DNA of 64,000 nt from NCBI GenBank assembly GCA_030447865.1, contig JAUJOD010000004.1:1-64000 (forward strand). Direction: 5' to 3'. The notes below the pieces were generated by a model that was given only the letters and a program-made list of their open reading frames with translations, was not told where the DNA came from and searched no databases. Positions 5,208 to 53,395 of this stretch are shown here, piece after piece (the stretch's first letter is position 1; each line of letters begins with the position of its first letter). The position numbers were made by a program, and so were the translations under genes. This DNA comes from Nocardioidaceae bacterium. GTDB lineage: Bacteria > Actinomycetota > Actinomycetes > Propionibacteriales > Nocardioidaceae.

Positions 5208-5243
5208 GCTGGATGGCGGACGCGAGGACGAGGAGGTATAGCG

Positions 5244-8775: not shown

Positions 8776-8802
8776 AACGGCGACTCCTCCAGGGCCATCC
8801 GG

Positions 8803-12916: not shown

Positions 12917-13864
12917 ATGGAAACCGACATGTTGAAAGGTGCGCGGGATACTGGAGCCGCCAACGGGGCCGTACCGGTTTTCGCCGATCCACCGTCCGAC
13001 CCGCAATGGCAGCTCGGCGGGACCGGCTACGGGTTGGAGCCACTAACGATGCCACCGCCGTACCCCTCGGCGCTGTCACCCGGCCCGGCTGGTGACTTCA
13101 GCGCAGAGCACCGGCGGCTGCGGCAGCTCTGCGACTTGCCGGTCGGCGGCACGGAGGACGACCCGGAGGACGACCGGGTGCCCTGGTTCCGGTGGATCAC
13201 CGGGCATCAGGTGAGTTTCATCGTGTGGCGGCTGATGGCCGAGACCCAGGATGCCGCGACCACCGGGCGTCTGCCTGTTCCCGAGGCGGTGAGGGGGCTG
13301 GTGGACTATGTCCGCGCATATGCGGCGATGGTGCTATACACGGGCTCCTGCTCCCGCGAGACCTATCACCGGGTGATCCGGCCCAGCCTGCGGTTGCACC
13401 ACCCCGCCTTCAGCGGAGCATGGGCGCCCGACTACGCCGCGGTCCGCGGACTGTTCCGCGGCGGGACGCCCGGGTTCGCCCGGGGTCATGACGCCGGTGA
13501 ACTGAACGGCGCCGTCCGCCTTTACCGGCTCTCCCATGCCGGGATCGCGACCCGCCTGGTGCCGGACGGCCGCTCGCTGCTGCAGCAGGCCGGCAGCAAC
13601 CCGACCGACATGCGGATGCTGCACTTAATCTACGACAGCTACTTCCTCACTTTCCGCGGGCCGGCATCTCACAGCGACCTGGTCGGCCAGCTGCTACGCC
13701 GGCTAACCGCGATCGTCGGCGACCTGCGCGCCAGCGGTATGCGGTTCGGTGACGAGGAAGTCCGGGAACTGCAGGTGCCCGAGGTGGCCGGCGCCATCAC
13801 CGGGATCGTGCCGATCCTGGCGCGGGTCGCGTCCCGCGCCACAGGGCCGGGCGGGCAGGGATGA
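12917..13864 (+). CDS. Putative heme-dependent aromatic amino acid hydroxylase (LmbB2/PrnB-like)
   Basis: A 315-residue mostly helical protein of uncertain family. TGSCSRETYHRVIRPSLRLH followed by HPAFSGAWAPDYAAVRGLF resembles histidine-bearing segments of the tryptophan-dioxygenase-like superfamily that includes PrnB and the heme tyrosine 3-hydroxylases of 4-alkylproline pathways. Two adjacent His in RLHHPAF could ligate heme. Its stop overlaps the next start by ATGA (13861-13864). If correct, it would turn tyrosine into DOPA for the VOC enzyme at 7.2 kb. The assignment rests on motif resemblance and may be wrong; hypothetical protein is the fallback. Confidence 0.45.
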   Translation: METDMLKGARDTGAANGAVPVFADPPSDPQWQLGGTGYGLEPLTMPPPYPSALSPGPAGDFSAEHRRLRQLCDLPVGGTEDDPEDDRVPWFRWITGHQVSFIVWRLMAETQDAATTGRLPVPEAVRGLVDYVRAYAAMVLYTGSCSRETYHRVIRPSLRLHHPAFSGAWAPDYAAVRGLFRGGTPGFARGHDAGELNGAVRLYRLSHAGIATRLVPDGRSLLQQAGSNPTDMRMLHLIYDSYFLTFRGPASHSDLVGQLLRRLTAIVGDLRASGMRFGDEEVRELQVPEVAGAITGIVPILARVASRATGPGGQG

Positions 13865-15672
13865 CCGGTGAGCCCAGCGTCGCCGTTATCGGGCTGGGCG
13901 CCCGCGGGCTTGGCGTGCTGGAACGGCTGGTCAGCCTCTGCCGGGATCTGGGGGCCGACCGCGGGCGTCTGTGCGTCGAGGTCATTGATCCGACCTGCTC
14001 CGGCCGCGGGATCCACGTCCGGGAGCAGCCGAACTATCTGCGGCTGCATTCGCCGGCCGGCAAGGTCACCATGTTCCCGGACGCCGCCACCCTGCCCGGG
14101 ACCGGCGCTGGCACCGGCCCCTCCCTGCTCGACTGGGCGGTGGACCGTGGCCTCACCGTTGGACCCGACGGGCTCCCCCCGCGGGCCGGCGGGCGGCCGG
14201 TCATGCCTAGCGACTTCCTACCGCGGTCGGTGCTAGGCGACTACCTGACCTGGGTGGGTGATCATCTTCGGAGGTCGGCGCCGCCGTACGTCAAGATCGT
14301 CGCGCACCGGACCGAAGCCGTCGACATCGACCGTGATGCAGACGGCCGGCTAATGGTCCGCTGCGCGGACGGGCGGACGCTCACGGTTGGTCGTGCTTTC
14401 CTCACTACCGGCTACGGGGGCGGCGGCCCACCGTTCCCGGACGGCGGCCGGGAACGGGTGCGCCACCCGTACCCGTTGCCCTTGGCAACCGCTGGGGTGC
14501 GGCCGGGTGAGACGCTGGCCGTCCTCGGCTTCGGCCTGTCCGCCTTGGACCTGGTGGCGAGCGTGACCGTGGGCCGGGGTGGCCGGTTCACCGAATACGG
14601 CGACCGGCTCGTTTACCTCCCTGGCGGGGCTGAGCCGACGGTGCTGCTGGCATCACGGTCCGGGGTACCCGCACGCTGCCGGCCGCCGCTGCCGGTCCGG
14701 CGTCCGAAGTTCCGGCCGCGTTTCCTCGACGTCGCCGCGATCGAGGAGTTGCGCGGCCGTCCCGGCGGTCAGGTGGACTTCGAACGGGATGCCCTCCCGC
14801 TGGTGTACGACGAGATGCGGCTCGCCTATCGCCGCGCGCAGCTGCGCGGCTACGGCCCAGATCCGGATGCCCTGCCGACGGCGGCGCTGCGCAAGCAGCT
14901 CGACGACTGGGATGAGGAGCTGGGCCGGTTCGACGCCGCGGCGTCGCTGGCCGGCTCGGCGAACATGTCCCTCGTGGACGGCAGCCGGTACCACGAGTGG
15001 GTGGCGGAGGCTATCCGGTCTGATCTGGCGGCTGCCCGGAAGCTCCCGAACGGAACCCCGCTTAAGTGCGCGACCGAGGCCCTGGTGGATCTGTTCCAGG
15101 CAATCCAGGCCGTGCTGGTGCCGGGTCTGATCACCGACCGTTCGCTGGAGACCTTCTCCGCGATCACCGGCCCAGCGATCCGGCGCGCCGCGGTCGGGCC
15201 CTACCACGATCGGCAGCGGGAACTCCTGGCGCTGCTCGACGCCGGTGTGGTCCGGGCTCCCTTCGGGCCTGAACCAGTCGTCCGGAAGCTGCCACGGGAC
15301 GGCTGGGAGATCGGCTCGACGCGCCTCGTGTCGCCGTTCTGTCAATCGGTGCGCTGGGTTTTCGCGGGCCACATGCCTACCCCGAGCCTGGACTCGGCGA
15401 CGAGCAGTCCGCTGGTGTCCTCGCTCTGGGAGAAGGGGTGGATCCGTCGTCATCGGCGGGGGTTGCCGCAGATCCGTGCGATTGACATCGATCACCGGAT
15501 GCACCCACTGGATGACCATGGGCGGCCCGATGAGCAGCTTTGGGTGCTGGGACCGCTGTGTGAAGACGCAACCTTCTATAACCACGTCCTGCCCGAGCCC
15601 GGATCGTACTCGCCCTGCGTCGCGGACGCGCATCGGTGTGTCTCGGAAATGCTCTCCGGCGGCGACGACTGA
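13861..15672 (+). CDS. FAD/NAD(P)-binding protein (PF13454-type)
   Basis: A 603-residue protein. It opens with a Rossmann loop SVAVIGLGARGLGVLERLVS, has a second nucleotide-binding site TLAVLGFGLSALDLVASVTV at about residues 218-237, and ends in WVLGPLCEDATFYNHVLPEP. This architecture matches large FAD/NAD(P)-binding proteins of unknown chemistry, distantly like N-hydroxylating monooxygenases. It is translationally coupled to the putative hydroxylase before it. A multiply deleted copy is found at 35.4-36.0 kb next to decayed DegT and Gfo/Idh copies, so the genes travelled as a set. Reaction unknown; oxidation of the cyclitol or of an amine is possible. Confidence 0.65.
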   Translation: MTGEPSVAVIGLGARGLGVLERLVSLCRDLGADRGRLCVEVIDPTCSGRGIHVREQPNYLRLHSPAGKVTMFPDAATLPGTGAGTGPSLLDWAVDRGLTVGPDGLPPRAGGRPVMPSDFLPRSVLGDYLTWVGDHLRRSAPPYVKIVAHRTEAVDIDRDADGRLMVRCADGRTLTVGRAFLTTGYGGGGPPFPDGGRERVRHPYPLPLATAGVRPGETLAVLGFGLSALDLVASVTVGRGGRFTEYGDRLVYLPGGAEPTVLLASRSGVPARCRPPLPVRRPKFRPRFLDVAAIEELRGRPGGQVDFERDALPLVYDEMRLAYRRAQLRGYGPDPDALPTAALRKQLDDWDEELGRFDAAASLAGSANMSLVDGSRYHEWVAEAIRSDLAAARKLPNGTPLKCATEALVDLFQAIQAVLVPGLITDRSLETFSAITGPAIRRAAVGPYHDRQRELLALLDAGVVRAPFGPEPVVRKLPRDGWEIGSTRLVSPFCQSVRWVFAGHMPTPSLDSATSSPLVSSLWEKGWIRRHRRGLPQIRAIDIDHRMHPLDDHGRPDEQLWVLGPLCEDATFYNHVLPEPGSYSPCVADAHRCVSEMLSGGDD

Positions 15673-15677: not shown

Positions 15678-15721
15678 GATCACCGCGTCCGGCGGGCGAC
15701 GAACCCGGCGACGCGGTGATC
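15678..15721. terminator. Hairpin between convergent genes
   Basis: GATCACCGCGTC (15678-15689) and GACGCGGTGATC (15710-15721) are perfect reverse complements with a 20-base loop. The hairpin fills the 47-base gap between two convergent genes and touches the stop of the Gfo/Idh gene, as expected for a bidirectional terminator. There is no clear T-run on either side. Confidence 0.6.
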
Positions 15722-16721
15722 ATGCCACGGCGTGCGCCTTAAGGAGCCGGGTGGCGACCAGGCACCGATCCAGTGCCTGCGCGCTGGTCTCCGCTCCCGG
15801 CGCCTCGTCGTCCCCCAGCGCGAAAGCGGCAAGCTCCGCCCGTACGCCTGCTCGGAAGGCGCCTGGTTCGCCGTCGCGCTGCTTCCGGTGATGGACGACG
15901 CCACCGGCAAGCCGGGTGGTTACGCTCCAGGTCGGTTCCATCTGCAGGAACGCGGCGCCCAGGGTACCCAGCACCTCGGTGCGTACGTCGTCGGCGTAGC
16001 GGCAGTTGAGCGACAGGTCCACGGTGACCGTGGCGCCCTGCTCGGCGCGGCCGACGATTGTGACGTTGTCGACCTCCCCCATCGCGGCGATCGCCGGGTC
16101 GACCGCGAGCCCACGGACCACAACGGGGTCCCCGATCGGGCACCCCAGCCAGGCCGCTAGGTCGAACTCGTGGATGCCGCAGTCCACGACGAGCCCGCCG
16201 CTGACCGACGGGTCGTAGAAACCCGGCGGCGGAGGGTCGGCGTCCCACTGCACCGCCCGGACAGCGATGATCTGTCCGAGGTGCTCCTCGGCCGCCGCAC
16301 GCAGCAGTCGGAAGGGCGCGGCGTACCGCCGCCAGAAGCCCACCTGCAACCGCAGGCCACGGTCGCTTGCTAGCCGGCCGAGTGCCCGGCTCTCGTCGAC
16401 GTCAAGCGTGAGCGGCTTCTCGCAGAAGACATCCAGCCCGGCATCGAGTCCGGCCCGGACGTCGATCGCGTGCCGGTTGGAGGGGGTGGCGATCAGGGTG
16501 CAATCCGCGCCGACGGCCGAGGCCGCGTCCGCCAGATCGGCGAAGACGGGCACGTCTTCCGGCACCCGGGCGGCCGCCGCCTCGGCCGCCACGCGGTTCA
16601 CGTCGACGAGGGCGACCACGTGGATCAGGCCGGTCGCGAGCGCCTCGCCAAGCACGACCGATCCCATCCGACCCAGTCCGGCCACGATCGCGCGGCGCGG
16701 TTGAGCATCCGCCGGGCTCAT
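15720..16721 (-). CDS. Gfo/Idh/MocA-type NAD(P)-dependent dehydrogenase
   Basis: A 333-residue sugar or cyclitol dehydrogenase. The N-terminal Rossmann motif is AIVAGLGRMGSVVLGEALAT and the catalytic-Lys motif EKP is in FCEKPLTLDVDES. The C-terminal domain holds SGGLVVDCGIHEFDLAAWLG with the conserved Asp and His. The ATG at 16721 overlaps the DegT stop (ATGA). Established knowledge: this family paired with DegT enzymes converts an alcohol to a ketone for transamination, as in inositol to scyllo-inosose. Inference: with Ino1 at 59 kb it forms an amino-cyclitol. A remnant with the same C-terminal motifs lies at 34.8 kb. Confidence 0.8.
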   Translation of the reverse strand: MSPADAQPRRAIVAGLGRMGSVVLGEALATGLIHVVALVDVNRVAAEAAAARVPEDVPVFADLADAASAVGADCTLIATPSNRHAIDVRAGLDAGLDVFCEKPLTLDVDESRALGRLASDRGLRLQVGFWRRYAAPFRLLRAAAEEHLGQIIAVRAVQWDADPPPPGFYDPSVSGGLVVDCGIHEFDLAAWLGCPIGDPVVVRGLAVDPAIAAMGEVDNVTIVGRAEQGATVTVDLSLNCRYADDVRTEVLGTLGAAFLQMEPTWSVTTRLAGGVVHHRKQRDGEPGAFRAGVRAELAAFALGDDEAPGAETSAQALDRCLVATRLLKAHAVA

Positions 16722-17989
16722 CCCGCGATCACCTTGGCGACCGCCTCGGCGATGTCGTACATGTCGCGCTCCTCGGCGAGGAGGGTGCTGTGGTGCGTCA
16801 CGACGCTGTGGTCGGCGAAGAAGTCGGAGTTGGGGAAGCGGCGGCCCTGGTTCACCGCCATGAAGTCGTCGGTCAGCGGTCGCAGGGTCCGCTTGTTCCA
16901 CGGCCGCAACAGGCGGCTGGTGTGCAGCGGGGCGTCGGTCGGATAGAAAGCGGTGCCCAGCTCCGCGGTGAGCGCTTCGCCGAGCTGAACCACGTTCATG
17001 CCGCGGGGCAGCGGGTCGAAGATCAGCGGCAGCTCGTAGATGGACATCCGGCTCTGTTCCGGGGCGGGCTGCAGCACGGACACGCCGTCGACCTCCGCGA
17101 GCAGGCTGGTCAAGAGACGATGGTTGCCGTTGCGCCGCTCGTGCTGCTGCTGCAGGATGCCGAGCTGCGCACAGAGAACGGCCGAGTTGAACTCGCTGAT
17201 GCAGAAGTTGGAGCCCATCGTGGTCGCCGTCTCGATCACCTCGAGCTCGCCCCTACGGCCCCGGTCCTTCCGGTAGCTGCGCGAGTCGGCGCGAAGCTCC
17301 TGCAGGGTGTGTGCCCGGCTGTCGCTGTTGCTCACGACCGCGCCGCCCTCGCCGGCGCTGAGGACCTTCCCGTGCTGAAAGCTGAAACAGCCCAGCTGGC
17401 CCATCGTGCCCGCGCCTCGGCCGCCCCACTCGGCACCGTGCGCCTGCGCGCAGTCTTCAATCATCGCGATCCCGTGCGGGGCGCCGGCGGCGACGAGCGC
17501 CGGAACATCGGCCATGCAGCAGGACCAGTGCACCACGACCGCAGCCTTGGCGTTCACCGTGAGGTCGAGGTTGTCTGCGCCGAGACAGCCGGTCACCGGG
17601 TCGACGTCGACCAGCACCGGCACGAGGCCGGCGCGGAGCGCCGCTGAGGCGGAGGCGACCCAGGTGAGCCCGGGGACCAAAACCCGGTCGCCGAAGTCCA
17701 GCCCCAGCGACTCGAGCGCCACCACCAGCGCGCTGGACCCGTGATCGACCGGGATGCAGTGACGCACGCCGACGTAATTCGCGAAGCTCTGCGCGAAGGT
17801 ACGCTCAAACAGCTCGGTGGAACCGAGCGGGCTGCTGATCGCCCATCTCCCGCTATGCAGGACGGCCTCGAGGTTCTGCGCGGCGCCCGGGGCCGGCTCT
17901 GGCCAGACGGGCCAGCGCTGCTCCGCCGACCGGATCGGCTCGCCTCCGTCGATGGCCAGCGTTGCAATTTTCGCATCGGTTATGCTCAT
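16718..17989 (-). CDS. DegT/StrS aminotransferase, cyclitol type (BtrS/StsC-like)
   Basis: A 423-residue PLP enzyme. The Schiff-base Lys is K208 in CFSFQHGKVLSAGEGGAVV; MIEDCAQAHGAEW supplies the cofactor-binding Asp. SGRWAISSPLGS, VLVPGLTWVASASA, ELRADSRSY and GSNFCISEFNSAVL closely recall glutamine:2-deoxy-scyllo-inosose aminotransferase of butirosin (BtrS) and StsC of streptomycin. It would put an amine on an inosose using glutamine. The ATG lies 6 bases after the predicted -10, so the transcript may be leaderless. An N-terminal fragment of a paralogue is at 34.6 kb. AHBA-synthase-like activity is the main alternative. Confidence 0.7.
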   Translation of the reverse strand: MSITDAKIATLAIDGGEPIRSAEQRWPVWPEPAPGAAQNLEAVLHSGRWAISSPLGSTELFERTFAQSFANYVGVRHCIPVDHGSSALVVALESLGLDFGDRVLVPGLTWVASASAALRAGLVPVLVDVDPVTGCLGADNLDLTVNAKAAVVVHWSCCMADVPALVAAGAPHGIAMIEDCAQAHGAEWGGRGAGTMGQLGCFSFQHGKVLSAGEGGAVVSNSDSRAHTLQELRADSRSYRKDRGRRGELEVIETATTMGSNFCISEFNSAVLCAQLGILQQQHERRNGNHRLLTSLLAEVDGVSVLQPAPEQSRMSIYELPLIFDPLPRGMNVVQLGEALTAELGTAFYPTDAPLHTSRLLRPWNKRTLRPLTDDFMAVNQGRRFPNSDFFADHSVVTHHSTLLAEERDMYDIAEAVAKVIAG

Positions 17990-18040: not shown

Positions 18041-18921
18041 TCAGGCCTGCTCCCAGCGCAGCTCGAGGGACGGCCGAGGTGGCCGGCGATGCGCTCAGCC
18101 TCCTCGGTGACCGCGGCGCAGCCCCGGCGCGGAATCGATCTGTATGGGTGGATGGCCAACTGGACGCAGTTCCGCTCCCGCCGATGCGTCCACCGCCCCG
18201 AGACGCGGCCGTCGCCGAGAACTACCGGTGCGATCCGCCCAGCGGGCCGAAAGACGTCGGACACGTGATGCGGGTCCACGAACGGGTCCTCCCGGGCCAT
18301 CCCGATGACCCACGGATCGAAGGCGGGCAGCAGCGGCCACGAGAAAGGGTCGTCCACCGCGCGCATCCCGGCCACATCCTCCGCGAGAACCCGGGCTTCC
18401 TGGCCGGCGAACGTCACTGGGACGACCTCGTCACCGAGCGAGGAAAGAAGGCCGCTGCCTACCGGTAGCGCCGGCGGACCGACCCACCAGCGGGCGATGC
18501 TCCCGGGCGTGGCCGGGGCGTATGCCCGTAGGAACGCCCGGGCCACCGCCTTCAGCCCCTCAGCTGGCGCCACCTGTTGGAGGCCGTCGATCCAGAACCA
18601 GGCGAAGTGAACCGGACCGTGGCCCCCGTCCGGTCCGGTGAAGCACAGCAGACCCCGGAACGAGCACGCCTTCAGATCCGAGCCCAGCTAGACCGCATCC
18701 AGTCGGCGAGCTTGGCGGAGCCGGTCGACCGGCCCAACCCCCGCGGCGAGCTCGTCGCGGCTGAGAACGCGGTTGCACAGCAGCGTCCCAACCGCCCGGC
18801 ACACCCTTTCGGTGTCCGAAGTGCCGTTGTTGCCGAACTTCTTCATGGTGCTCAGCGCGGCCAGCCACCAGCCCAACTGGGCAGTGGGCAGCACGTGCAG
18901 GCGATCGAAACCGAGCCGCTG
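18041..18921 (-). pseudogene. AlkZ-like (HTH_42) winged-helix protein, decayed copy
   Basis: The sequence parallels the intact AlkZ-like gene at 32.3 kb. HVLPTAQLGWWLAALSTMKK and FGNNGTSDTERVCRAVG correspond to its middle, and RAFLRAYAPATPGSIARWWV plus LLPAFDPWVIGM to its C-terminal half. A frameshift near 18690 separates the parts. Near the end the frame shifts again; the expected LELRWEQA and TGA at 18043-18041 remain in the other frame. The N-terminal 80 or so residues, where the catalytic QxQ would be, are replaced by the start of an LLM gene. Confidence 0.75.
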
Positions 18922-26731: not shown

Positions 26732-27397
26732 GTGTCACCAGTGTCGACGGTGCCGGGGCTGCAGCCCATTCCATCGTACGAGATGCCCTCCGGAACATGG
26801 GACGACGTCGATTGCCCGGTCGCGTGGCGAGCCGATCCGAACCGGATGGTGCTGCTGATCCATGACATGCAGCGGTACTTCATCCGTCCGTTCGTAGCCG
26901 ACCACGACGCGCTCGCCACGGCGATCGCGAACATGCGCCGGCTGCGCGTCGCCTGTACGCGGGCCGGCATACCCGTGCTCTTCACCGTACAGCCGGGCGG
27001 GCAGTCACCCCATCGACGCGGTTTGCTCTGCGATTTCTGGGGACCGGGGATGGCAACCGGCGGCGACGAGGAGGTCATTGACGAGCTACGGCCGGGCGAG
27101 CGCGATGAGGTCCTGCCCAAGCACCGGTACAGCGCGTTCGTCGACTCGGGACTGCAGGAGACGTTGCTCCGGGCCGGGCGCGACCAGCTGGCCGTGTGTG
27201 GCGTCTACGCCCACATCGGATGCCTCGTGACCTGTTGCGACGCGTTCATGCGCGATCTACAGGCCTTCCTCGTCGCCGACGCGGTGGCCGACTTCTCCCT
27301 GGCCCGCCACCGGTCGGCCGTCGATTGGGTCGCGGAGCAGTGCGCGCGAGTCGTCTCCAGCTCCACGTTGCTCGCCGAGCTGGGCGAACGGGAGTAG
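26732..27397 (+). CDS. Isochorismatase
   Basis: A 221-residue enzyme that hydrolyses isochorismate to 2,3-dihydro-2,3-dihydroxybenzoate and pyruvate. Catalytic Asp45 lies in MVLLIHDMQRYFIRPF and Lys130 in VLPKHRYSAF; GVYAHIGCLVTCCDAFMRD is the third signature. The GTG at 26732 has AAGGAGG 4 bases upstream. Unlike EntB or DhbB it stops after the hydrolase domain and has no aryl carrier domain, so the aryl unit must be carried elsewhere or used free. A PhzD-like reaction on 2-amino-2-deoxyisochorismate is the alternative, but no phenazine-type partner is seen. Confidence 0.85.
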   Translation: MSPVSTVPGLQPIPSYEMPSGTWDDVDCPVAWRADPNRMVLLIHDMQRYFIRPFVADHDALATAIANMRRLRVACTRAGIPVLFTVQPGGQSPHRRGLLCDFWGPGMATGGDEEVIDELRPGERDEVLPKHRYSAFVDSGLQETLLRAGRDQLAVCGVYAHIGCLVTCCDAFMRDLQAFLVADAVADFSLARHRSAVDWVAEQCARVVSSSTLLAELGERE

Positions 27398-27401: not shown

Positions 27402-28178
27402 ATGCCAGCGGTGAGCCGAGGCGGGCGTGGCCGCCTGGTTGTAATGACCGGGGCCGCCGGTGGTATCGGGACCGCTGTCGTTCGCGCGCTGCTCGCCGAG
27501 TCGTACCGTGTGGCGCTGGTCGACAACGACAAGTGCGGTCTGGACGCCATCCAGGCCGACGAGAGTGCCGCGCCGACGTTCGTCTGCGACGTGGCCAACG
27601 CCGACCAGGTCGACGGCACGATCGCACAGATCGAGGAACACGTCGGGGCGATCTACGGGCTGGTCAACGTGGCGGGCGTGCTGCGCACCGGGCCGGTCGT
27701 CCGATGTGGAGACGATGATTGGGAGGCGGTGTTCGCCGTCAACGCACTGGGCGTCTTCCACTGCTCCCGCGCGGTGGCGCGGCGACTCATCACGCGGCGC
27801 GACGGCGCGATCGTTACCGTCGCGTCGGACGCGGCCAGCGTCCCACGTGTCGGCATGGCCGCGTACGCCGCGTCCAAGGCGGCGGCGGTGGCGTTCACGA
27901 ACTGCCTCGGCCTCGAGCTCGCGGCCAGCGGCATCCGGTGCAACAGCGTCGCCCCCGGCTCGACTGACACGACGATGCTGCGCTCGATGGGAACCGGGGA
28001 CGTCGTGAGCGCCGCGGTGGAAGGCCGGTCCGATCTCTTCCGCGTCGGCATCCCGCTCGGTCGGGTCGCCGATCCGGACGACATCGCCACCGCAGTCGAG
28101 TTCCTGTTGTCGGAGCGGGCCCGGCACATCACCATGCAGAGCCTCTACGTCGACGGTGGTGCGGCGCTTCGTGGCTGA
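27402..28178 (+). CDS. 2,3-dihydro-2,3-dihydroxybenzoate dehydrogenase (EntA-like SDR)
   Basis: A 258-residue short-chain dehydrogenase. The cofactor loop is [20 protein letters not shown]; the active-site pair is in [14 protein letters not shown]; and [17 protein letters not shown] is the EntA/DhbA-type signature that follows. It oxidises the dihydrodiol to 2,3-dihydroxybenzoate with NAD. It starts 5 bases after the isochorismatase stop and runs into the synthase gene, so the three steps are co-translated. Other dihydrodiol or 3-hydroxyanthranilate-type substrates are possible. Confidence 0.82.
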
Positions 28179-29568
28179 CGGCAGCGCGCACAGCAAGAAG
28201 GCGACGTTGGACGATACGGACAGCCGCTACCGGGAATCGGTCCTTCCCGTCATGGCGGACCGCCTCGCGGGCGTCGTCGGCCTGGTGACCGACGTTGACG
28301 ACCGCGACTACGTGTGCTTCGAGGGCGACGACGGCTGGTGCGTGGGCGTTGGCCGGGCCGCCGAGCTGGTCGCCGATCGCCGGCGCGTCGTCCTGAAAGG
28401 GCGTCATGGCCGGGTGGAACTGCCGTGGGATCGCGGGTCCATCGGGGCGGTCCCGGCGCTGCTCGCGAGCGCTGGCCTCGCGGGCTGGCGCGCGTACGGG
28501 TGGTGCGGCTTCGATCTGGCGGCCGCGAAGGAAGGCCGGCTGGACCTCGTGGATGACCGACCGTTCCTCCACTTCATCATCCCCGAGGTCGAGGTCCGCT
28601 TGAGTCCGGCCGGTACCCTCCTCCGGGCCCTGCGGGCCAGCGACTTGGAGTGGGCCCAGGCGCTGCTGATGGCGCGCGCCACCCACGGACACGAAGGCCC
28701 GGTTACGGCCGCGGCGCCCGACATGCTCGATCAGCTCGACGCGAGTCGGCACGACTACGAGGTCGCCGTCGACAAGGCCCTGCACGCCATCCACCTGGGG
28801 CGCGTGCAGAAGGTGGTGCTCGCCCGGAAGATCCCGGTGCCGGCCGACGTGGACCTAATCGGTACGTACGAGGCGGGACGGCGGCGGACCACACCGGCCC
28901 GGTCGTTCCTGTTCGCGCTCGGCGGTCTGGAGGCCGCCGGCCTAAGCCCCGAGTCCGTGGTCCGGGTCGGCGACGACGGCACGGTGACGTCGCAGCTTCT
29001 CGCCGGCACGCGGCCCGCCGCCGGTTACCCGGCAGGCGACGCGGCCGTGCGCGAGGAGCTGCTGCGAGATCCCAAGGAGGTCTTCGAACACGCCGTCTCC
29101 GTGCGAGCGGCCCTGGACGAGATCGGCACCGTCTGTGATCCCGCCTCGGTCGTGGTCGAGGGTCTGCTGTCGGTGAAGAACTGTGGGAGCCTTCAGCACC
29201 TTGCCTCGACGGTGCGGGGGCGGATGGCCGACGGCTGCACGGCCTGGGACGTCTTCACCGCGCTGTTCCCGGCCGTGACCCTGACCGGTACGCCGAAGCT
29301 GGCGGCCTGCGAGCTGATCCGCGAGCTCGAGAAGGAGGGCCGGGCGGCCTACGGCGGCGCCGTCGTCACGTTCGGGGCGAGCGGCACCCTGGACACGGCC
29401 GCCGTCCTGCGAGCCGTGTTCCGCAGCGACGGGCAGGCGTGGATCCAGGCCGGCGCCGGCATCGTCGCACAGTCCCGCCCGGATCGCGAGTTCACCGAAA
29501 CCCGCGAGAAGGCTCTGGCGATCGGCCGGCATCTGGTGCCACGGCGACGCGAGGGGAACCCATCATGA
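28156..29568 (+). CDS. Isochorismate/salicylate synthase (MbtI/DhbC type)
   Basis: A chorismate-utilising enzyme of up to 470 residues. QKVVLARKIPVPADVDLI, VVVEGLLSVKNCGSLQHLAS, LFPAVTLTGTPKLAACELIR and WIQAGAGIVAQSRPDREFTE are the family's active-site blocks. The wording of these blocks is nearer to MbtI/Irp9 salicylate synthases than to EntC. Next to an isochorismatase and an EntA-like enzyme, isochorismate is the expected product. There is no glutaminase domain, so it is not an anthranilate or PhzE enzyme. The start is uncertain: GTG 28156, GTG 28171 (overlapping the SDR stop) or ATG 28252. Confidence 0.75.
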   Translation: MVRRFVADGSAHSKKATLDDTDSRYRESVLPVMADRLAGVVGLVTDVDDRDYVCFEGDDGWCVGVGRAAELVADRRRVVLKGRHGRVELPWDRGSIGAVPALLASAGLAGWRAYGWCGFDLAAAKEGRLDLVDDRPFLHFIIPEVEVRLSPAGTLLRALRASDLEWAQALLMARATHGHEGPVTAAAPDMLDQLDASRHDYEVAVDKALHAIHLGRVQKVVLARKIPVPADVDLIGTYEAGRRRTTPARSFLFALGGLEAAGLSPESVVRVGDDGTVTSQLLAGTRPAAGYPAGDAAVREELLRDPKEVFEHAVSVRAALDEIGTVCDPASVVVEGLLSVKNCGSLQHLASTVRGRMADGCTAWDVFTALFPAVTLTGTPKLAACELIRELEKEGRAAYGGAVVTFGASGTLDTAAVLRAVFRSDGQAWIQAGAGIVAQSRPDREFTETREKALAIGRHLVPRRREGNPS

Positions 29569-31220
29569 GCGCGGCCGAGGGTTTTGTGCCGTGGCCGGAC
29601 GACTACGCCGCCCGCTACGTCGCGCGCGGGTACTGGGACGGCGTCTGTCTCGACGAAAGAGTCTGGAGTGTGGCGGCGCGCCGACCCGACGCTCCGGCCA
29701 TCGTGGACGGCTCAACCCGCCTGGCGTACGGCGAGCTGACCGATCGGGCCGCCGCCGCCGCTGCCCGCCTGTCCGCCATCGGGCTCGCGGCCGGCGACCG
29801 GATCGTCGTCCAGCTGCCCAACCGCTGGGAGTTCGTGGCCCTTGTGCTCGCCTGCTTCCGGGCGGGCGTCGTACCCGTGCTCGTGCTGCCCGCCTTGCGG
29901 ATCCGCGAGATGAGGGCGATCGCCGAGCGGGCGGGGGCGCGAGCGGTCGCGGTGGCTCGCGAGTTTCGCGGGTACGACCACGAGCGCCTGGCGCACGCGG
30001 TGGCCGGCTCGGTCCCCAGCGTCGAAGTGGTACTGGTCGCCGACGCGGCCGACCAGCGCAGCCTCGACCTGAGCGCCCTGTGTGAACCGTCGCCGAAACC
30101 CACACGCCGGTACAGCGGCGACGCCCGAGGTGTGGCCCTCGTCCTGCTTTCCGGGGGGACCACCGGCCCGCCGAAGCTGATCGCGCGCACGCACGACGAC
30201 TACGGGTACCTTGTCCGCCGCAGTGCGGAGGTGTCGGGTTTCGACGAGCGGACCGTGTACCTGGCCGTCCTGCCGGTCGAGCACAACTTCGCGTTTGGGA
30301 CGCCGGGCGTGCTGGGGGCGCTTCTCAGCGGCGGCTGCGCGGTGCTCGCGGCGAGCCCGGCGCCCGAGACGGCCCTCGGACTCATCGAGGGCGAGCGTGT
30401 CACCCACGTATCCGTGGTACCGACGGTTCTGCAGCGGTGGATGGTCCAATGTGCCGACCACCCCGGGCGCGACCTCGGCTGTCTACGGGTCGTACAGGTC
30501 GGCGGCGCGCCGCTGCCCGTACACGTCGCGAGGAGGGTCCACACGGTATTGTCGGGCCGGCTGCAGCAGGTGTACGGAATGGGCGAAGGGTTGCTGTGCT
30601 TTACCGGGCTCACCGAGCCGGAGGAGGTGTTGCATGCCACCCAAGGGCGGCCGATCTGCCCCGACGACGAGCTCCTGGTCGTGGACGACAACGATCGTCC
30701 GGTAGGGCCGAACCGGCCGGGCGTCCTGCTCGTCCGTGGCCCGTACACGGTGCGGGGCTACTACCGGGCCGGGGACGACGATGCTCAGGCGTTCACCGCC
30801 GACGGGTGGTACCGGACAGGTGACGTCGTGCGCCGGCGCGACGATGGCAACCTCGTCGTCGAGGGTCGCGCGAAGGACGTGATCATCCGCGGTGGCGAGA
30901 ACATCGCGGCCGCGGAGATCGAGCAGTTCGCCTACCAGGTCGACGGTGTCCAGCGGGCCGCAGCCGTGGCGCGGCCGGACGAACGCCTGGGCGAGTCTAT
31001 CTGCCTGGTAGTGGTGGTCGCTCCGGGCGCGGTCGTGGAGTTGGCCGCCGTACACGCGGTGATGAAGCGCGCAGGGACTGCGAGGTTCAAGTATCCGGAC
31101 CACCTCGTGCGGGTCGACTCGATGCCGGTCACCGGAGTCGGCAAGGTGGACAAGCGCGCCCTGCGCGAGCTGGTGGCGGGATCGGCCGTGTCATCGGCGG
31201 GCGCTGGTGTCGGGCGGTGA
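29565..31220 (+). CDS. Aryl-AMP ligase (2,3-dihydroxybenzoate/salicylate activating)
   Basis: A 551-residue member of the EntE/DhbE family that makes aryl-adenylate and transfers it to a carrier thiol. Motifs are LLSGGTTGPPKLIARTHDDY (P-loop), VEHNFAFGTPGVLGALLSGG (with the Asn that contacts the aryl 2-hydroxyl), MGEGLLCFT, WYRTGDVV and VEGRAKDVIIRGGENIAAAE, and the C-terminal catalytic Lys in GVGKVDKRALRE. The ATG at 29565 overlaps the synthase stop (ATGA), with GAGGGGA ahead of it. No aryl carrier domain is in the operon; the free ACP at 50.0 kb or the fused ACP at 55.5 kb are candidate partners. Confidence 0.85.
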   Translation: MSAAEGFVPWPDDYAARYVARGYWDGVCLDERVWSVAARRPDAPAIVDGSTRLAYGELTDRAAAAAARLSAIGLAAGDRIVVQLPNRWEFVALVLACFRAGVVPVLVLPALRIREMRAIAERAGARAVAVAREFRGYDHERLAHAVAGSVPSVEVVLVADAADQRSLDLSALCEPSPKPTRRYSGDARGVALVLLSGGTTGPPKLIARTHDDYGYLVRRSAEVSGFDERTVYLAVLPVEHNFAFGTPGVLGALLSGGCAVLAASPAPETALGLIEGERVTHVSVVPTVLQRWMVQCADHPGRDLGCLRVVQVGGAPLPVHVARRVHTVLSGRLQQVYGMGEGLLCFTGLTEPEEVLHATQGRPICPDDELLVVDDNDRPVGPNRPGVLLVRGPYTVRGYYRAGDDDAQAFTADGWYRTGDVVRRRDDGNLVVEGRAKDVIIRGGENIAAAEIEQFAYQVDGVQRAAAVARPDERLGESICLVVVVAPGAVVELAAVHAVMKRAGTARFKYPDHLVRVDSMPVTGVGKVDKRALRELVAGSAVSSAGAGVGR

Positions 31221-31938: not shown

Positions 31939-31949
31939 AAGGAGAACCG

Positions 31950-32330
31950 ATGGACCGGCCGAAGCTCCGAATCACGTCGGTGACCATTGGTGCCCCCGAC
32001 CCCGGTGAGTTGGCGCGTTTCTACGGCGAATTGCTGGGTTGGCCCGGCGAATTCGAAGAGAACTGGGCCCAGCTGCAGGGGCCGACGAACGGGGGCCTGT
32101 CCACATTGAATTTCGAGGTCGAGAAGGCCTACATCCGGCCGACCTGGCCGAGCGCAGCCGGCGAGCAGCAGATCATGGAGCACCTGGATATCGCGGTCGA
32201 CGATCTGGACAAGGCCGTCGCCTGGGCCGAGGGGCTTGGTGCCACGCTGGCCGAGCACCAGCCGCAGAAGACCGTGCGGGTCATGCTCGACCCAGCCGGT
32301 CATCCGTTTTGCCTGTTTGCTGACGAGTGA
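31950..32330 (+). CDS. VOC-family protein
   Basis: A 126-residue glyoxalase-fold protein. SVTIGAPDPGELARFYGELL is the typical first strand-helix, EHLDIAVDDLDKAVAWAEGL the second, and MLDPAGHPFCLFAD the final strand. AAAGGAG at 31937-31943 serves ATG 31950. Small VOC proteins of this sort are often drug-binding resistance proteins or lyase-like enzymes; metal ligands are incomplete, which favours binding. Its place immediately before the AlkZ-like gene, with an overlapping stop/start, fits a self-protection pair. Confidence 0.65.
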   Translation: MDRPKLRITSVTIGAPDPGELARFYGELLGWPGEFEENWAQLQGPTNGGLSTLNFEVEKAYIRPTWPSAAGEQQIMEHLDIAVDDLDKAVAWAEGLGATLAEHQPQKTVRVMLDPAGHPFCLFADE

Positions 32331-33433
32331 CTCGCGTCGCGTGGCGCCAGGCGCTGGCCTGGCGGGTCAACCGGCACTTCCTGAGCACGCGGACGACCGC
32401 CGCCGAGCTGAGCCGCGTCGCCGGCGCGTTGTGCGGACTTCACGCGCAGATACAGAGCTCGCCCGGACTCAGCCTGCTGGCCCGGATCCAGGAGCTGCCG
32501 CCCGAGGCCGTGGAGGACGCGCTCTGGCGCCGTCGGAGTCTGGTCAAGCTGTGGTCGGCGCGCGGCACGCTTCATCTGCTGCCCGCCGCCGACCTGGGGA
32601 TGTGGCTGGGCGCGCTCCGCACCCAGAAGAAGTTCGGCAACGCGGGTCATCCCAAGGTGGAGCAGATCTGCGCGGCGGTGGGCCGCGCGCTCGACGGTCA
32701 GGTCCTCACCCGCGCCGAACTGGCGGCCGAGGTGGGCCGGAGTACCGGCTCGGCCGAGCTAGCCACCTGGGTCGGCTCGAGTTGGGGCTCCGACCTCAAG
32801 GCCGCGTCCTTTCGAGGGCTCATCTGTTTCGCCTCACCGAAGGGGCGCGAGGTGCGTTTCACGTCGCCCGCGACCTGGACCAGAGCGGCCTGCCGGGTCC
32901 AGCCCGCCGAGTCGGCCATCCGCGAGGTCACGCGGCGGTTTCTCGCGGCCTACGCGCCGGCCACTCCCGAGTCCATCGCGCGCTGGTGGGTCGGCCCGCC
33001 GAAGACTACGGTGGGCATGCGTATGCTGGCGACGCTCGGCGACGAGGCCGTGCCGGTCGAGGTGGGTGGCCGGGCCGCGTGGGCCTTGGCCGAAGACGTG
33101 GCGGAGTTGCGGACGGCCACCGCGCCGGAGACCTGCCGGCTGCTGCCCGCGTTCGACCCGTGGATCATCGGCGCGTTCCGTGAGCCGCCGTTGATACCGA
33201 CCGACCGCGTGCGCGATGTCTTCCGACCGCAGGGCCGGTTCTCCCCCGTCGTGCTGGTCGACGGGCGGGTCGTCGGGCGGTGGGAGCACCGCCGGACCGG
33301 AGGATCGGTGGCGCTCGCCATCACACCGTACGGGCGGGTTGGGCGCCGCGTGCGGGCGGCGCTGGAGTCCGAGGCGCAGCGGGTCGCCGGCTATCTGGGC
33401 GGCGCGCTCGAACTGAGCTGGAGCTCCAGGTGA
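32327..33433 (+). CDS. AlkZ-like (HTH_42) DNA glycosylase, possible self-resistance
   Basis: A 368-residue protein of the HTH_42/YcaQ family with tandem winged-helix domains. Seen: Gln41-Ile-Gln43 in CGLHAQIQSSPGL, at the position of the catalytic QxQ or QxD motif; RGTLHLLPAADLGMWLGAL; FRGLICF; LLPAFDPWIIG; and an FRPQGRFSPVVLVDGRVVG beta-barrel-like segment. Established knowledge: AlkZ unhooks azinomycin crosslinks from DNA and depends on QxQ, while many actinobacterial relatives lack it. Inference: it protects the producer from a DNA-alkylating product. The GTG start overlaps the VOC stop (GTGA). A decayed copy lies at 18 kb. Confidence 0.7.
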   Translation: MTRVAWRQALAWRVNRHFLSTRTTAAELSRVAGALCGLHAQIQSSPGLSLLARIQELPPEAVEDALWRRRSLVKLWSARGTLHLLPAADLGMWLGALRTQKKFGNAGHPKVEQICAAVGRALDGQVLTRAELAAEVGRSTGSAELATWVGSSWGSDLKAASFRGLICFASPKGREVRFTSPATWTRAACRVQPAESAIREVTRRFLAAYAPATPESIARWWVGPPKTTVGMRMLATLGDEAVPVEVGGRAAWALAEDVAELRTATAPETCRLLPAFDPWIIGAFREPPLIPTDRVRDVFRPQGRFSPVVLVDGRVVGRWEHRRTGGSVALAITPYGRVGRRVRAALESEAQRVAGYLGGALELSWSSR

Positions 33434-33483: not shown

Positions 33484-34581
33484 GTGACGATGGTCGTAGT
33501 GTTGGCCGGCGACAGCACGCCCGCGCATCGGGCCGAGGTCATCAGGCGGGTCCGGGCCACCGGGGCGACGGTGGCGGCACGCTCGCCGGAACTCCTGGTC
33601 GTCGGCGGTGGCCGGCCGGACGCCGGGGCGTACCTGGCCGAACTGCCTCAGGTCGTCAACGTGGCCACGCTCACCGCGGAGTATCCGTTGGTGGCGGCCG
33701 AATCCCGCTGCCAGGAGCCCAGCGTGGTAAGCATCGCCGGCTGCCGCATCGGACCGCACGGCTTCGCGGTCATCGCCGGGCCGTGCGCGGTGGAGTCCCG
33801 TGACCAGCTGGTCACGATCGCCCGGGCCGCCCGCGAGGCCGGCTGCCACGTGCTGCGCGGCGGCGCCTTCAAGCCCCGCACCAGCCCATACTCGTTCCAG
33901 GGGCTCGGGTTGGCCGGACTCGATCTGCTGGCCGAGGCCCGCGAACTCACCGGTCTACCGTTCGTCACCGAGGTGCTCGATGTGCGCATGGCCGAACGGG
34001 TGGCGGCCGTGGCCGACGCCGTTCAGGTAGGCGCCCGCAACATGCAGAACTATCCGCTGCTGCGCGAAGTGGGCCGGCTCGAACGGCCGGTCGTGCTCAA
34101 GCGAGGTCCGGCCGCCACCATCGACGAGACGCTCTTGGCCGCCGAGCACATCCTGGCCGCTGGCAACGACCGAGTCGTCATCTGCGAACGCGGCATCCGC
34201 ACGTTCGAGCCTGGATACCGTTTCACCCTCGATCTGGCCGCGGTCACGGTACTGCGCGAACGCACCCACCTGCCCGTCATCGTGGACCCCAGCCACGCGG
34301 CCGGGGCGACCCGCCGGGTGCCCCCGCTGGCCCTCGCCGCGGCCGCGGCGGGGGCCGACGGGGTGATGGTCGAGGTTCACCACGATCCGGCCACCGCCCG
34401 CTGCGACGGTCAGCAGGCTCTCTCGCCGTGCCAGCTGCAGGAGCTGACCAGGTCCCTGCGGCTGGCTGCGGGCGCGGCCGGTCGGACGCTCAACCCGACC
34501 CCCGCGGACACCCTGGTGGCCCCGGCCTTGGCGGCAAACCCGGTGCCCGTATCGGCGACGCCGGCTGTAGAACCGTTGTAG
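33484..34581 (+). CDS. 3-deoxy-7-phosphoheptulonate (DAHP) synthase, type I-beta
   Basis: A 365-residue enzyme condensing PEP and erythrose 4-phosphate, the first shikimate step. The N-terminal 75 residues resemble the ferredoxin-like regulatory domain of I-beta enzymes. The barrel shows FAVIAGPCAVESRDQLV (metal Cys), LRGGAFKPRTSPYSFQGLG, QVGARNMQNYPLL, VLKRGPAATIDETL, ICERGIRTFEP and VDPSHAAGATRRV (metal His). As a cluster-located copy it boosts chorismate for the dihydroxybenzoate branch, and possibly tyrosine for the putative hydroxylase. It is a single-gene unit with its own box. Confidence 0.92.
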   Translation: MTMVVVLAGDSTPAHRAEVIRRVRATGATVAARSPELLVVGGGRPDAGAYLAELPQVVNVATLTAEYPLVAAESRCQEPSVVSIAGCRIGPHGFAVIAGPCAVESRDQLVTIARAAREAGCHVLRGGAFKPRTSPYSFQGLGLAGLDLLAEARELTGLPFVTEVLDVRMAERVAAVADAVQVGARNMQNYPLLREVGRLERPVVLKRGPAATIDETLLAAEHILAAGNDRVVICERGIRTFEPGYRFTLDLAAVTVLRERTHLPVIVDPSHAAGATRRVPPLALAAAAAGADGVMVEVHHDPATARCDGQQALSPCQLQELTRSLRLAAGAAGRTLNPTPADTLVAPALAANPVPVSATPAVEPL

Positions 34582-34613: not shown

Positions 34614-34790
34614 ATGAACGTGACGCCGGTGCGAGACAGCCGGTTGGCCATCGACGGCGGAAAGCCGGTGCGGCCACCGGGCCGGACATGGCCGTTCTGG
34701 CCCCGGCTGGCGGCGAAGGCCGCCGGACCTGGACGCCGTGGTGAAGAGTGGGCGCTGGGCGATCGCGACCGTTTCGGCTCCTACGGGAGG
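34614..34790 (+). pseudogene. DegT aminotransferase, N-terminal remnant
   Basis: LAIDGGKPVRPPGRTWPFWP copies the N-terminus of the DegT enzyme at 17.99 kb (LAIDGGEPIRSAEQRWPVWP). GDRDRFGSYG follows in a disturbed frame where the intact gene has SGRWAIS. Everything beyond about 55 residues, including the PLP Lys, is deleted, and the sequence passes directly into the Gfo/Idh remnant. The upstream promoter region also matches that of the intact gene. Confidence 0.7.
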
Positions 34791-34793: not shown

Positions 34794-35368
34794 CCGGGCG
34801 AGATCGTGTCTGTGCGCGCGGTCCCGTGGGACGCCAACCCGCCGCCGCCGAGCTTCTGCAACCCGGCGGTCAGCGGCGGGCTGATCATCGACTGCGGTAT
34901 CCACGAGTTCGACATGGCCGGGTGGCTCAGCTGCCCGCCGGAGGGCCAACACCACGTGTTCGCCGGACCGGCGGTGGACCCGGCCGTGGCGGCCGTCGGC
35001 GACGTGGACAACGTCGCCATCGTGCACACGGCGTCCGGCGGCGCCACCCTGACCATGGACCTTTCACTCAACTGCCGCTACGCCGACGACGTCCGCGTCG
35101 AGATCGTTGGTGCCCGCGGGGCGGCCTTTACTTCACACGATTCCGATGTGGAGCCTGTGCGTCCGGTTGGCCGACGGGTTGGTCCGGGAGGCGACCCAGC
35201 GGTCGGACGAGCCGGGACGCCTTCGCGTCGGGTGTGCGCAACGAACTCGCCGCGTTCGCCACGCGGCCGGCCGACCCCTTCGCTCCGGGCGCCGAGGCCA
35301 GCGCGGCCGCGCTGGAGCGGTGTCAGGAGGCGACCCGCGTTCTCCGGGCCAGTCCGGTGGCGCGGTGA
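34794..35368 (+). pseudogene. Gfo/Idh dehydrogenase, C-terminal remnant
   Basis: EIVSVRAVPWDANPPPPSFC, SGGLIIDCGIHEFDMAGWLS and MDLSLNCRYADDVRVEI track the intact enzyme at 15.7-16.7 kb (IIAVRAVQWDADPPPPGFYD and so on). The Rossmann domain and EKP motif are absent. A frameshift near 35130 leads to the last 50 codons (AFASGVRNELAAFATRPADP), ending in TGA at 35366-35368. Confidence 0.75.
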
Positions 35369-35397: not shown

Positions 35398-36003
35398 ATG
35401 AACGAGACGTCGGTCGCGGTGATCGGGCTCGGCCCTCGCGGGCTCGGCGTCGTGGAACGTCTGATCTCATTGGCCCGGTTCCGCGACGACGCCCTGCGCA
35501 TCGAGGTCGTCGACCCGAGTTGCTCGGGGCCGGAGAGAGCGTGGCCATCACCGGGTTCGGCCTGTCGGCGCTGGATGTCGTGAGCAGCTTGACCCTAGGC
35601 CGCGGCGGTCGATTCCGGCGCGACTGTTCCGGGGTACTGTACCTTTCCAGTGGTCGCGAGCCGACCATCCTGCTGGCCTCGCACTCCGGCGCACCCCAGT
35701 CCCCGCGGCTGGCCTGGTGCGAGGAGCCGGAACACTTGAGCGGGCTACCGGGCGGTTCGCGCGGAGTTTGACCCGCCGGTAGGCCAGCCGCATTCGTCGC
35801 CATCGACCGCGGGCCGCTCACGTCCGCGGAGTCGACGTCGATCAGCGGGCTTCATCCGCGGAGCCCCCACGGCGTCGACGAGCGGATGTGGGTGCTCGGT
35901 CCGCTCTGCGAAGGCACGACGTACTACAACCACGTCCTGCCCAAGCCGCACACGTACTCGCCGTGCGTTGCCGCCGGCGATCGGTGTGTTGTCGAGCTAC
36001 TCG
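35398..36003 (+). pseudogene. FAD/NAD(P)-binding protein, multiply deleted remnant
   Basis: Three islands of the 603-residue protein at 13.9 kb survive in order. They are TSVAVIGLGPRGLGVVERLI at the start, AITGFGLSALDVVSSLTLGR from the middle, and MWVLGPLCEGTTYYNHVLPK followed by PHTYSPCVAAGDRCVVEL from the C-terminus. Roughly two-thirds of the gene is missing at two internal deletions. Confidence 0.75.
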
Positions 36004-36033
36004 GACAGCGGGATCGAAAGAGGCTGGTGCGCG

Positions 36034-37079
36034 ATGTCCATCAGGGCGCTGTCCGGAGTTCGCCTCCGGCTCGAACAGACTGGGGCGCTCGACTGGCGCG
36101 ACATCCCGCTGGACGACCGGCCGAGGGATGAACTGGACTCAACTGCTACCTTCGCTCGATCGAGGCCATGCGGGGGTGTGGCTACACGCGCGACGAGGTT
36201 CTGTTCGAACTCGGGGGTGCGATCACCGACCGGATGCCGGCCGACGGCAGCCCCTGGCTGTCCCTGCGCGACTCGCGCGCACGCTGGGTGGTCAGGGACC
36301 CGGACGCCGATTTCTGGAGCGGGATCGAGAAGAGGCTGCGCGGCGGCGGATCGGCGCTGGTCTGGCCGGACCACCTCTACTGGCCGGGCAGCCGTTTCGA
36401 CGGTCGACGGCACGTCTATGACCACGCGGTCCTGCTCACCGAGATAGAGGGCGGCGACCGCCTCACACCTCTCGACATCGACGCCGACCGGCACAAGGCC
36501 TATGTGGACTCGATAGTGATCGATGAGCGGTCCCGTCGGGCGTTCACCCGGCTGCTCGACGTGCGGCCGGAAAGGCCGGTGCGACCGCCGACCGCGGATG
36601 ACGTCCAGGAGATGGTGGTGTCGTCGGTGCCGCCGCTGGTCCAGTGAGCCCCAGGGCGTACGCCACCTCGTGGAACGATGGCGGGTCGACCCGTACCCCC
36701 GTTTGGCGCATGCCGTCGAGTGGTGGATCTTCAGCGACCCTCAGCCGCAGTTGTGCCTCTTCGCGAACATCTGCCGGGCGTACGGCAAAGGCGACCTGGC
36801 GGACGAGGGCGAGGTCGCCGTCCGGAAGGCGAAGAAGACGGGCTGTTCCTCATCGCGTTGAACGAGTACAAGTCCGTGGCACCGTACGGCCAAGGCCCGG
36901 ACGACCTGGTGGCCCTCAGTGACCGTCTTCGCGACATTGCCTACGCCGGGCTGCAGTCGGCGCGACATGAGGTGCCGGCTGGTCGGGACCCCAACGGCGA
37001 GCGGCTGTGGCGGCGGCTGGACGGCCTGTGCCGCTGGCATCAGGGGCAGGGGATCGACGCCGGACTGCCTACGGTCTAG
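36034..37079 (+). pseudogene. BtrH-like acyltransferase, frameshifted copy
   Basis: Nearly full length but broken at three points. ALDWRDIPLDD copies ALGWRDIPLDG of the gene at 5.24 kb; the frame slips near 36125, where the expected Cys region (NCYLRSIEA) is readable only in another frame. MPADGSPWLSLRDSRA and DHAVLLTEI follow, a stop occurs at 36645-36647, and two more shifts precede ALNEYKSVAPYGQGPDDLVA and the TAG at 37077-37079. It keeps codon-level similarity throughout, so the decay is younger than the divergence of the two copies. Confidence 0.8.
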
Positions 37080-52484: not shown

Positions 52485-53395
52485 TGGCCGCGCTCACCTG
52501 CTACACGACCGCCCTGCACGGCTACCTCGGGGTCGAGTGGGACGCCGACAGCATCATCGCGCGCTCGATCCGGCTCGCCGTGCGGGCCGACGAGCCGGAC
52601 GGGACGCTCGCGTTCTCGCATCATGATCCCCCGCTGGACCGACTGCCCGACGGGTCCACGCTGCGGTACGCTGGAGCGTCCAGCGCGACGGCCGCCCTGG
52701 ACGGCTTGCGCGAGGAGTGGGCCCGCCACCGACGGGCCGTCGTGGTCGTCGACCTGACACGGTTGGACTGGTCGGTGCGGCGTTCCGGGGACGCCCAGCC
52801 CCACTGGCTGCTGATCGACGGCCGGGTCGGCGGACGGTGGCACGTCGTCGACCGGTTCGCCGCCACGATGCCTGAGGGTGATCAGTACCCCTACGAGGGT
52901 TGGACGAGCGACGATCGGCTGACAGCGGCCATGAGGTTGCCCCGACGGTCTAGCCCCAGCCATCGGCTTCGCAACGCGCTCGCCTTCGGCGCTCCGGTTC
53001 CCGTGCCCTGCCAGAGCTGGCTCTGGCTCCGCCGCGGCAGCTCGGACGCGGCGACGGCGCCACCCGGTGACCGATGGTCCGATGATCCGGTTGAGGTCTT
53101 CGAGTTGTTGCGCACCTATGTGGAGGCCGGCCCGGAGCGCCTGGCCCGGGTGCAGGACGACCTGTGGGCCGCCGCGCGTCACCGGGCGTTCGCCTATCGC
53201 TGGTGGCTCGCCCGTCCCATCGACGACCGTCGCCGCGATGAGCTGCGGCGCGCCGTGGTCAGCTGGGAGTCGGTGCCACGAGCGGTCCGGTTCGCCGTGG
53301 AGTCGGCCCGGCGGGGCCGCTCGCGCCCCGCCCTAGTCGCCGCGGCACTGGACGCGGTGCGCCAGGCTGAGGGGAGGCTCGGGTGCTTGGTGTAG
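52481..53395 (+). CDS. BtrH-like cysteine acyltransferase, short form
   Basis: A 304-residue protein with the BtrH N-domain layout in compressed form. Cys7 sits in TCYTTALHGYLG, His108 in AQPHWLLIDGRVGG and Asp124 in WHVVDRF, the presumed triad. The C-terminal half is helical and Arg-rich. It overlaps the ACAD stop (ATGA) and the adenylation enzyme start, so it is made together with the ACP. Inference: it receives the chain from the ACP and passes it to an amine. It shares little sequence with the copy at 5.24 kb beyond the triad pattern, so a cysteine-peptidase-fold protein of other function is possible. Confidence 0.5.
   Translation: MMAALTCYTTALHGYLGVEWDADSIIARSIRLAVRADEPDGTLAFSHHDPPLDRLPDGSTLRYAGASSATAALDGLREEWARHRRAVVVVDLTRLDWSVRRSGDAQPHWLLIDGRVGGRWHVVDRFAATMPEGDQYPYEGWTSDDRLTAAMRLPRRSSPSHRLRNALAFGAPVPVPCQSWLWLRRGSSDAATAPPGDRWSDDPVEVFELLRTYVEAGPERLARVQDDLWAAARHRAFAYRWWLARPIDDRRRDELRRAVVSWESVPRAVRFAVESARRGRSRPALVAAALDAVRQAEGRLGCLV

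Follow-up and report, generated by a model that had tools for sequence, protein, structure and literature searches.

An HΦQ-type AlkZ-like DNA glycosylase as a candidate self-resistance gene in a duplicated, reciprocally decayed biosynthetic cluster

Does an AlkZ-like gene inside an uncharacterised biosynthetic cluster indicate that the cluster makes a DNA-damaging compound? The question is raised by a gene at positions 32327–33433 of a 64,000-nucleotide stretch from a Nocardioidaceae bacterium (assembly GCA_030447865.1, contig JAUJOD010000004.1, positions 1 to 64,000; hereafter, the window), which a preliminary description had related to AlkZ from the azinomycin cluster of Streptomyces sahachiroi through a Gln-Ile-Gln motif. 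The best explanation, to which a probability of roughly 0.55 is given, is that this gene, a member of the AlkZ-like (AZL) subfamily, confers self-resistance against a DNA-alkylating product of its own cluster. The evidence comes from a different, in-register catalytic motif, from an intact operon, and from a decayed second copy of the gene in a diverged second copy of parts of the cluster.

The AlkZ-like protein and its catalytic motif

The focal gene is a single open frame with a GTG start, and its AlkZ-like nature, as first described, is confirmed by a PF06224 match of E 1.9e-53 (182.7 bits, cut-off 25.9). In a PDB-wide sequence search, AlkZ (5uuj; phmmer E 1e-45) was the sole match at E up to 0.01. 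An AlphaFold2 model (alignment A2, 46 rows; pLDDT 93.9, pTM 0.92) was compared by VIA-align with the top 1000 Foldseek chains. It superposes on the AlkZ crystal structure 5uuj with Z 42.0 (root-mean-square deviation (rmsd) 2.3, 358 residues aligned, 33% identity), on AlkX/YcaQ 9zd6 with Z 28.1 (rmsd 3.6, 350 aligned), and on the Lhr C-terminal domain 7lhl with Z 18.4 (rmsd 5.5, 327 aligned), the next row having Z 6.8. Both the profile match and the three-winged-helix, C-shaped fold place the protein in the HTH_42/AlkZ-like superfamily.

Residues 41–43 do read Gln-Ile-Gln, as the preliminary description had it. This triplet had been set at the place of the AlkZ catalytic motif, with alignment to AlkZ named as the check and a shifted register as the outcome that would speak against it; the alignment puts the QIQ two residues out of register. 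Both phmmer against 5uuj and MAFFT pair L-C-G-V-Q-A-Q-V-W of AlkZ with L-C-G-L-H39-A40-Q41-I42-Q43 of the focal protein, so that H39 and Q41 occupy the catalytic positions, which in AlkZ we take to be Q37 and Q39, and Q43 faces a Trp. The QIQ was therefore rejected as the catalytic motif, residue 43 being variable as well, and the argument from a QxQ fails as it was written.

To retrieve named relatives, a single conserved pattern, W[ASC]MRGTLH, was used; of the 426 confirmed matches, the best 80 were retained. Because of this single-pattern retrieval, relatives without the pattern are missed; the focal protein itself, which reads WSARGTLH, does not match it. Of these 80 loci, 45 were aligned in A2: all 45 have Gln at residue 41, 35 have His and 10 Gln at residue 39, and 2 have Gln at residue 43. 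A motif table built from 130 loci plus the focal protein and AlkZ (132 rows, with some genes standing twice under two locus identifiers) holds 129 rows without a gap at this place, of which 88 have HxQ and 34 QxQ. The second Gln is thus present in 122 of the 129, which contradicts, for the sampled set, the claim that a second Gln or Asp is missing from many relatives. Residue 43 is Gln in eight rows, representing five distinct genes with the focal one among them, and HAQ was read in 15 of 15 sequences, the focal one included.

The AZL subfamily is defined by a (Q/H)ΦQ motif (PMC9040887), and the focal HAQ conforms to it in register. It differs from the QΦQ of AlkZ in its first position, from the QΦD of the YQL subfamily (YcaQ/AlkX), and, with the residues H-A-Q-I, from the HΦ(S/T)(D/E) of AZL2. 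Judged by its sequence, HAQ is an active-type motif, HΦQ as in TxnU4 and LldU1 (trioxacarcin and LL-D49194), where the substitutions H43A and Q45A, respectively, abolished excision and HΦQ is thus shown to be catalytic (PMC8934636). With the motif corrected, the residues to mutate are H39 and Q41, not Q41 and Q43.

The comparison with TxnU4/LldU1, made by description rather than by direct alignment, extends to the presence of two AZL paralogs in one cluster region, although one of the two is decayed here. Membership of their clade was rejected because the helix αI insertion of 10–15 residues that marks it is absent: the focal stretch in WH2 (winged helix 2) aligns without a gap to AlkZ, which is taken from PMC8934636 to lack the insertion. 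AlkZ shares with the focal protein the whole-length fold, the cluster location, and the second catalytic Gln, but it has Gln in place of the first catalytic His, Trp in place of Arg304, and a longer segment around residues 97–104, and it lies in another branch of the tree. YcaQ and AlkX have the same superfamily fold but another motif, and the host genome carries separate QID proteins; according to PMC9040887, YQL proteins are not found in biosynthetic clusters.

Of the 43 columns in which identity across the 45 relatives reaches 95% or more, the focal protein retains 40, the changes being M78A, W304R, and F335Y. Arg at the near-invariant Trp304 is common to both AZL copies of the window, and both also have the segment around residues 97–104 about ten residues shorter than in most relatives, as do two Thermomicrobiaceae proteins (L053/L054). 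The shortened segment, by its place in the sequence rather than by superposition, would correspond to helix αF of AlkX. A change of substrate could bring about both features.

The operon and two reciprocally decayed cluster copies

The focal AZL is gene 7 of an intact eight-gene, same-strand run (26732–34581) whose neighbours overlap or lie at most about 50 nt apart, in the order isochorismatase, short-chain dehydrogenase/reductase (SDR), isochorismate/salicylate synthase, 2,3-dihydroxybenzoate (DHB)-AMP ligase-like protein, sulfotransferase, VOC protein, AZL, and 3-deoxy-D-arabino-heptulosonate 7-phosphate (DAHP) synthase (Table 1). The DHB and DAHP synthase genes in this run bear out the proposed location inside a biosynthetic operon, and the gene lies in a biosynthetic cluster, as the AZL subfamily leads one to expect. 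For the ligase-like protein, the best NCBIfam model is TIGR02275 (541 bits, below its cut-off of 723.55). The VOC gene, likely to start at the ATG at 31950 after AAAGGAG, shares with the AZL a 4-nt overlap, GTGA, made of its stop TGA and the AZL start GTG, which makes translational coupling plausible from the sequence. Thus, the overlap and the fold of the described VOC partner hold; the pair was rejected as a conserved module, because the only other relative examined with a VOC match near its AZL is Actinopolymorpha (L004 = L055). At locus L113, a weak VOC match lies about 4 kb from the AZL.

When 35 cluster proteins were searched by tblastn against contig positions 1–84000, 12 gene families proved to have a second, diverged copy (roughly 40–62% identical); cross-hits among different adenylation enzymes and a third, more distant luciferase-like protein are not counted here. 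For 11 of these 12 pairs, one member is open and the other carries a truncation, frameshift, or stop; the exception is the luciferase-like pair 39548–40510/10681–11550, whose second member has no stop. Nine survivors stand on the left (the 361-aa protein, a VOC protein at 7196, an FAD oxidase, g12, the PF13454 protein, Gfo/Idh, DegT, an ATP-grasp protein, and a P450), and two on the right, the AZL and an adenylation protein. The right-hand remnants of the FAD oxidase, DegT, and ATP-grasp genes are short matches (31 to 57 residues, E 5e-7 to 2e-5).

The second AZL copy has lost the N-terminus that bears the motif, and a luciferase-like fragment is joined upstream. The two copies are 53% identical and sisters in the tree (support 100/100), with terminal branches of 0.16 for the focal copy and 1.21 for the decayed one, the latter inflated by frameshifted stretches. 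Both cluster copies have the order AZL-DegT-Gfo/Idh on one strand, the right one with the DAHP synthase in between, so that the AZL belongs to the cluster; this argues that the AZL was already in place when the copies began to diverge and that one copy has since been retained. The duplication and reciprocal decay of the cluster therefore give independent evidence for placing the glycosylase in the pathway.

Several further observations concern this region. Close to where the decayed AZL adjoins the luciferase-like fragment lies a 45-bp repeat (19030–19074 and 21395–21439, 95.6% identical), which may be left from the recombination by which the AZL lost its N-terminus. Copies or remnants of IS110-type transposases surround the cluster (3376–4480, 24773–25985, and the L155/L156 border). 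The 361-aa protein has no Pfam or NCBIfam match and, among 396 genomes of the phylum, was found only in the host genome, as one intact and one decayed copy. Matches to the PF13454 protein occur in 11 of 58 genomes searched, its own included; the best other match (37%) is in an order-mate, next to a large polyketide synthase (PKS)-like open reading frame (ORF). At that order-mate locus (L154, G043:C123:268650-288600), the PF13454 protein (35–37%) stands beside a PKS-like ORF of 1939 aa and a thioesterase-like ORF of 143 aa, a combination that may resemble enediyne clusters.

The cluster also encodes a P450, ATP-grasp proteins, a VioC/GntD-like hydroxylase, luciferase-like oxidoreductases, carrier and adenylation proteins, a carbamoyltransferase, and an inositol-phosphate synthase, and past the window lie another sulfotransferase, an ABC transporter, and a regulator recognised by eye as SARP-like. 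The hydroxylase (40470–41441), of the arginine/enduracididine type, scores 344.5 bits with the GntD model, against a cut-off of 345; the 767-aa protein of 41487–43790, in mid-cluster, has no Pfam or NCBIfam match.

Table 1. Features of the focal gene, its operon, and the paired cluster copies (positions in the window).
Feature	Position	Strand	Basis or state
AlkZ-like (AZL) DNA glycosylase, intact, 368 aa	32327..33433	+	PF06224; phmmer to 5uuj; AF2 model
In-register catalytic motif H39-A40-Q41 (HΦQ type)	32441..32449	+	alignments
Q41-I42-Q43, two residues out of register	32447..32455	+	alignments
Small VOC/glyoxalase-fold protein, 131 aa	31935..32330	+	PF18029 E 1.3e-21, also PF00903
Isochorismatase	26732..27397	+	PF00857
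SDR, DHB-dehydrogenase-like	27402..28178	+	PF13561; role assigned by position
Isochorismate/salicylate synthase	28156..29568	+	PF00425; TIGR03494 362.8 bits, cut-off 325.15
DHB-AMP ligase-like, start probably 29565	29439..31220	+	PF00501
Sulfotransferase, GWGRTGTSST loop	31207..31938	+	PF17784 E 4.2e-57
DAHP synthase type I	33484..34581	+	PF00793 E 2.2e-73
Second AZL copy, decayed	18070..18903	-	in-frame TAG, local frameshift, catalytic N-terminus lost
DegT aminotransferase, intact, adjoins decayed AZL	16718..17989	-	PF01041
Gfo/Idh oxidoreductase, intact copy	15720..16901	-	PF01408
FAD/NAD(P)-binding protein (g13), intact copy	13861..15672	+	PF13454
DegT remnant, 31 aa, downstream of focal AZL-DAHP	34614..34706	+	tblastn
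Gfo/Idh remnant, N-terminus lost, frameshifted	34797..35362	+	tblastn
PF13454 remnant, large deletions and frameshifts	35404..36014	+	tblastn
361-aa cluster protein (g5), no functional label, intact copy	5190..6275	+	sequence searches
Decayed copy of 361-aa protein, one stop, N-terminus lost	36135..37046	+	tblastn
Adenylation protein, intact; second pair with survivor on right	53383..54933	+	PF00501
Adenylation protein, decayed copy	7763..8782	-	tblastn

Relatives and alternative explanations

The tree has 107 rows, 25 fragments, odd or distant rows, and duplicates of the motif table having been left out. Without a named YQL or AZL2 reference in it, it groups the focal AZL with the HxQ/QxQ proteins, apart from L133 and other distant rows. 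The flanks of the 80 loci were screened by tblastn with the window proteins, and four were read gene by gene, without Pfam; an unrelated kind of biosynthetic cluster beside a relative could be missed by such a screen. In three of the best 80 loci, Lentzea indica (L097), L. aerocolonigenes (L126), and Plantactinospora mayteni (L095), the AZL is accompanied by adenylation or nonribosomal peptide synthetase (NRPS) genes and has a DAHP synthase no more than 10 kb away; these loci also share the HAQ. As the layouts of the two Lentzea loci are similar, the three count as at most two independent cases. They differ from the focal locus in lying on other branches and in having no DegT, Gfo/Idh, or sulfotransferase match in their flanks.

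Could the gene be a general repair enzyme, active on environmental or endogenous alkyl damage, which the cluster captured and whose position is incidental? The sister group of the AZL pair, the Thermomicrobiaceae L053/L054 (support 99/94, and 92 in the 107-row tree), and the next relatives, Thermoleophilaceae L052 and Actinopolymorpha L055, have no biosynthetic neighbours in their inspected flanks, so that the clade does not imply self-resistance, and HΦQ AZLs are spread across Chloroflexota, Acidobacteriota, Thermoleophilia, and others. Actinopolymorpha rutila is among the order-mates of the host, and a search of one genome from its genus gave just a distant HTH_42 match. However, this explanation is made rather unlikely by the two diverged AZL copies in the same cluster setting with a conserved gene order, by the change of both at the near-invariant Trp, and by the other HTH_42 proteins outside the cluster, which make the focal AZL an extra one. 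These further PF06224 members (C3:57141, C2:706748, C3:386003, C6:156613, and C3:1266211) include two with QID, one with QAQD, one of 244 aa without a motif, and a fifth contained in a very long ORF, whose length alone makes it Lhr-like.

A role in the cluster other than excision, such as product sequestration or regulation through the winged-helix scaffold, is allowed by PMC9040887 for clusters without a known alkylator, and W304R and the shortened segment do depart from most of the family. It is nevertheless improbable, given the retained HAQ and the 40 near-invariant columns. Still less probable is that the cluster is a relic and its AZL simply not yet decayed: pseudogenes and IS110 remnants are widespread in C8:1-84000, but 11 of 12 pairs each keep a single open copy, all genes of the eight-gene run are intact, and the focal branch is short.

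Several points weigh against self-resistance to an alkylating product. The region is decaying, so that the product may no longer be made; the non-cluster setting of the nearest relatives weakens the inference about the product; and L053/L054 have the shortened segment without any cluster, so that this trait is not tied to one. Neither a gene for warhead formation nor a homologous cluster of known product was identified, and a search of open-access papers found no AZL in a DHB-type cluster. Of nine characterised AZL clusters, four make known DNA alkylators, and 32 of 68 uncharacterised ones resemble those of DNA-damaging agents, as given in PMC9040887; the published base rate is thus about one half.

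The predicted product and the meaning of the locus

An active-type motif alone does not indicate a genotoxic product, because it is the rule in the sampled set, including relatives beside which no biosynthetic genes were found. The suggestion that the motif points to a DNA-damaging product hence loses its QxQ basis and survives in a weaker form, through the in-register HAQ together with the biosynthetic operon, while the duplicated cluster makes membership of the pathway more likely. Under the self-resistance reading, the focal protein would be an HΦQ-type, monofunctional DNA glycosylase, the cluster product would carry a chorismate-derived dihydroxybenzoyl unit, and this product would damage DNA by forming a bulky adduct of the N7-alkylguanine type, the probable substrate. 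The sulfotransferase two genes upstream of the AZL is a candidate for warhead formation by analogy with azinomycin, whose aziridine is made by sulfation and subsequent sulfate loss (Kurosawa et al., as cited in the review PMC9570651).

A bolder and rather doubtful proposal is that of a new genotoxin class, dihydroxybenzoyl-bearing and amino-sugar- or aminocyclitol-like, with a warhead formed through sulfation and sulfate loss. The enzyme excising its adduct would be an HΦQ AZL whose lesion-sensing region is shortened and in which Arg replaces a near-invariant Trp, two ancestral versions of the cluster having decayed reciprocally into one working set with a single surviving resistance glycosylase.

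In kind, the find is ordinary, an HΦQ-type AZL in an uncharacterised cluster, to which the reciprocally decayed twin adds interest. AZL genes serve to pick clusters that are likely to make DNA-damaging compounds, and this one marks, in a small actinobacterial genome, a cluster for which no homologue with a known product was found, in a setting that comprises a DHB/DAHP operon, a sulfotransferase, and a VOC gene.
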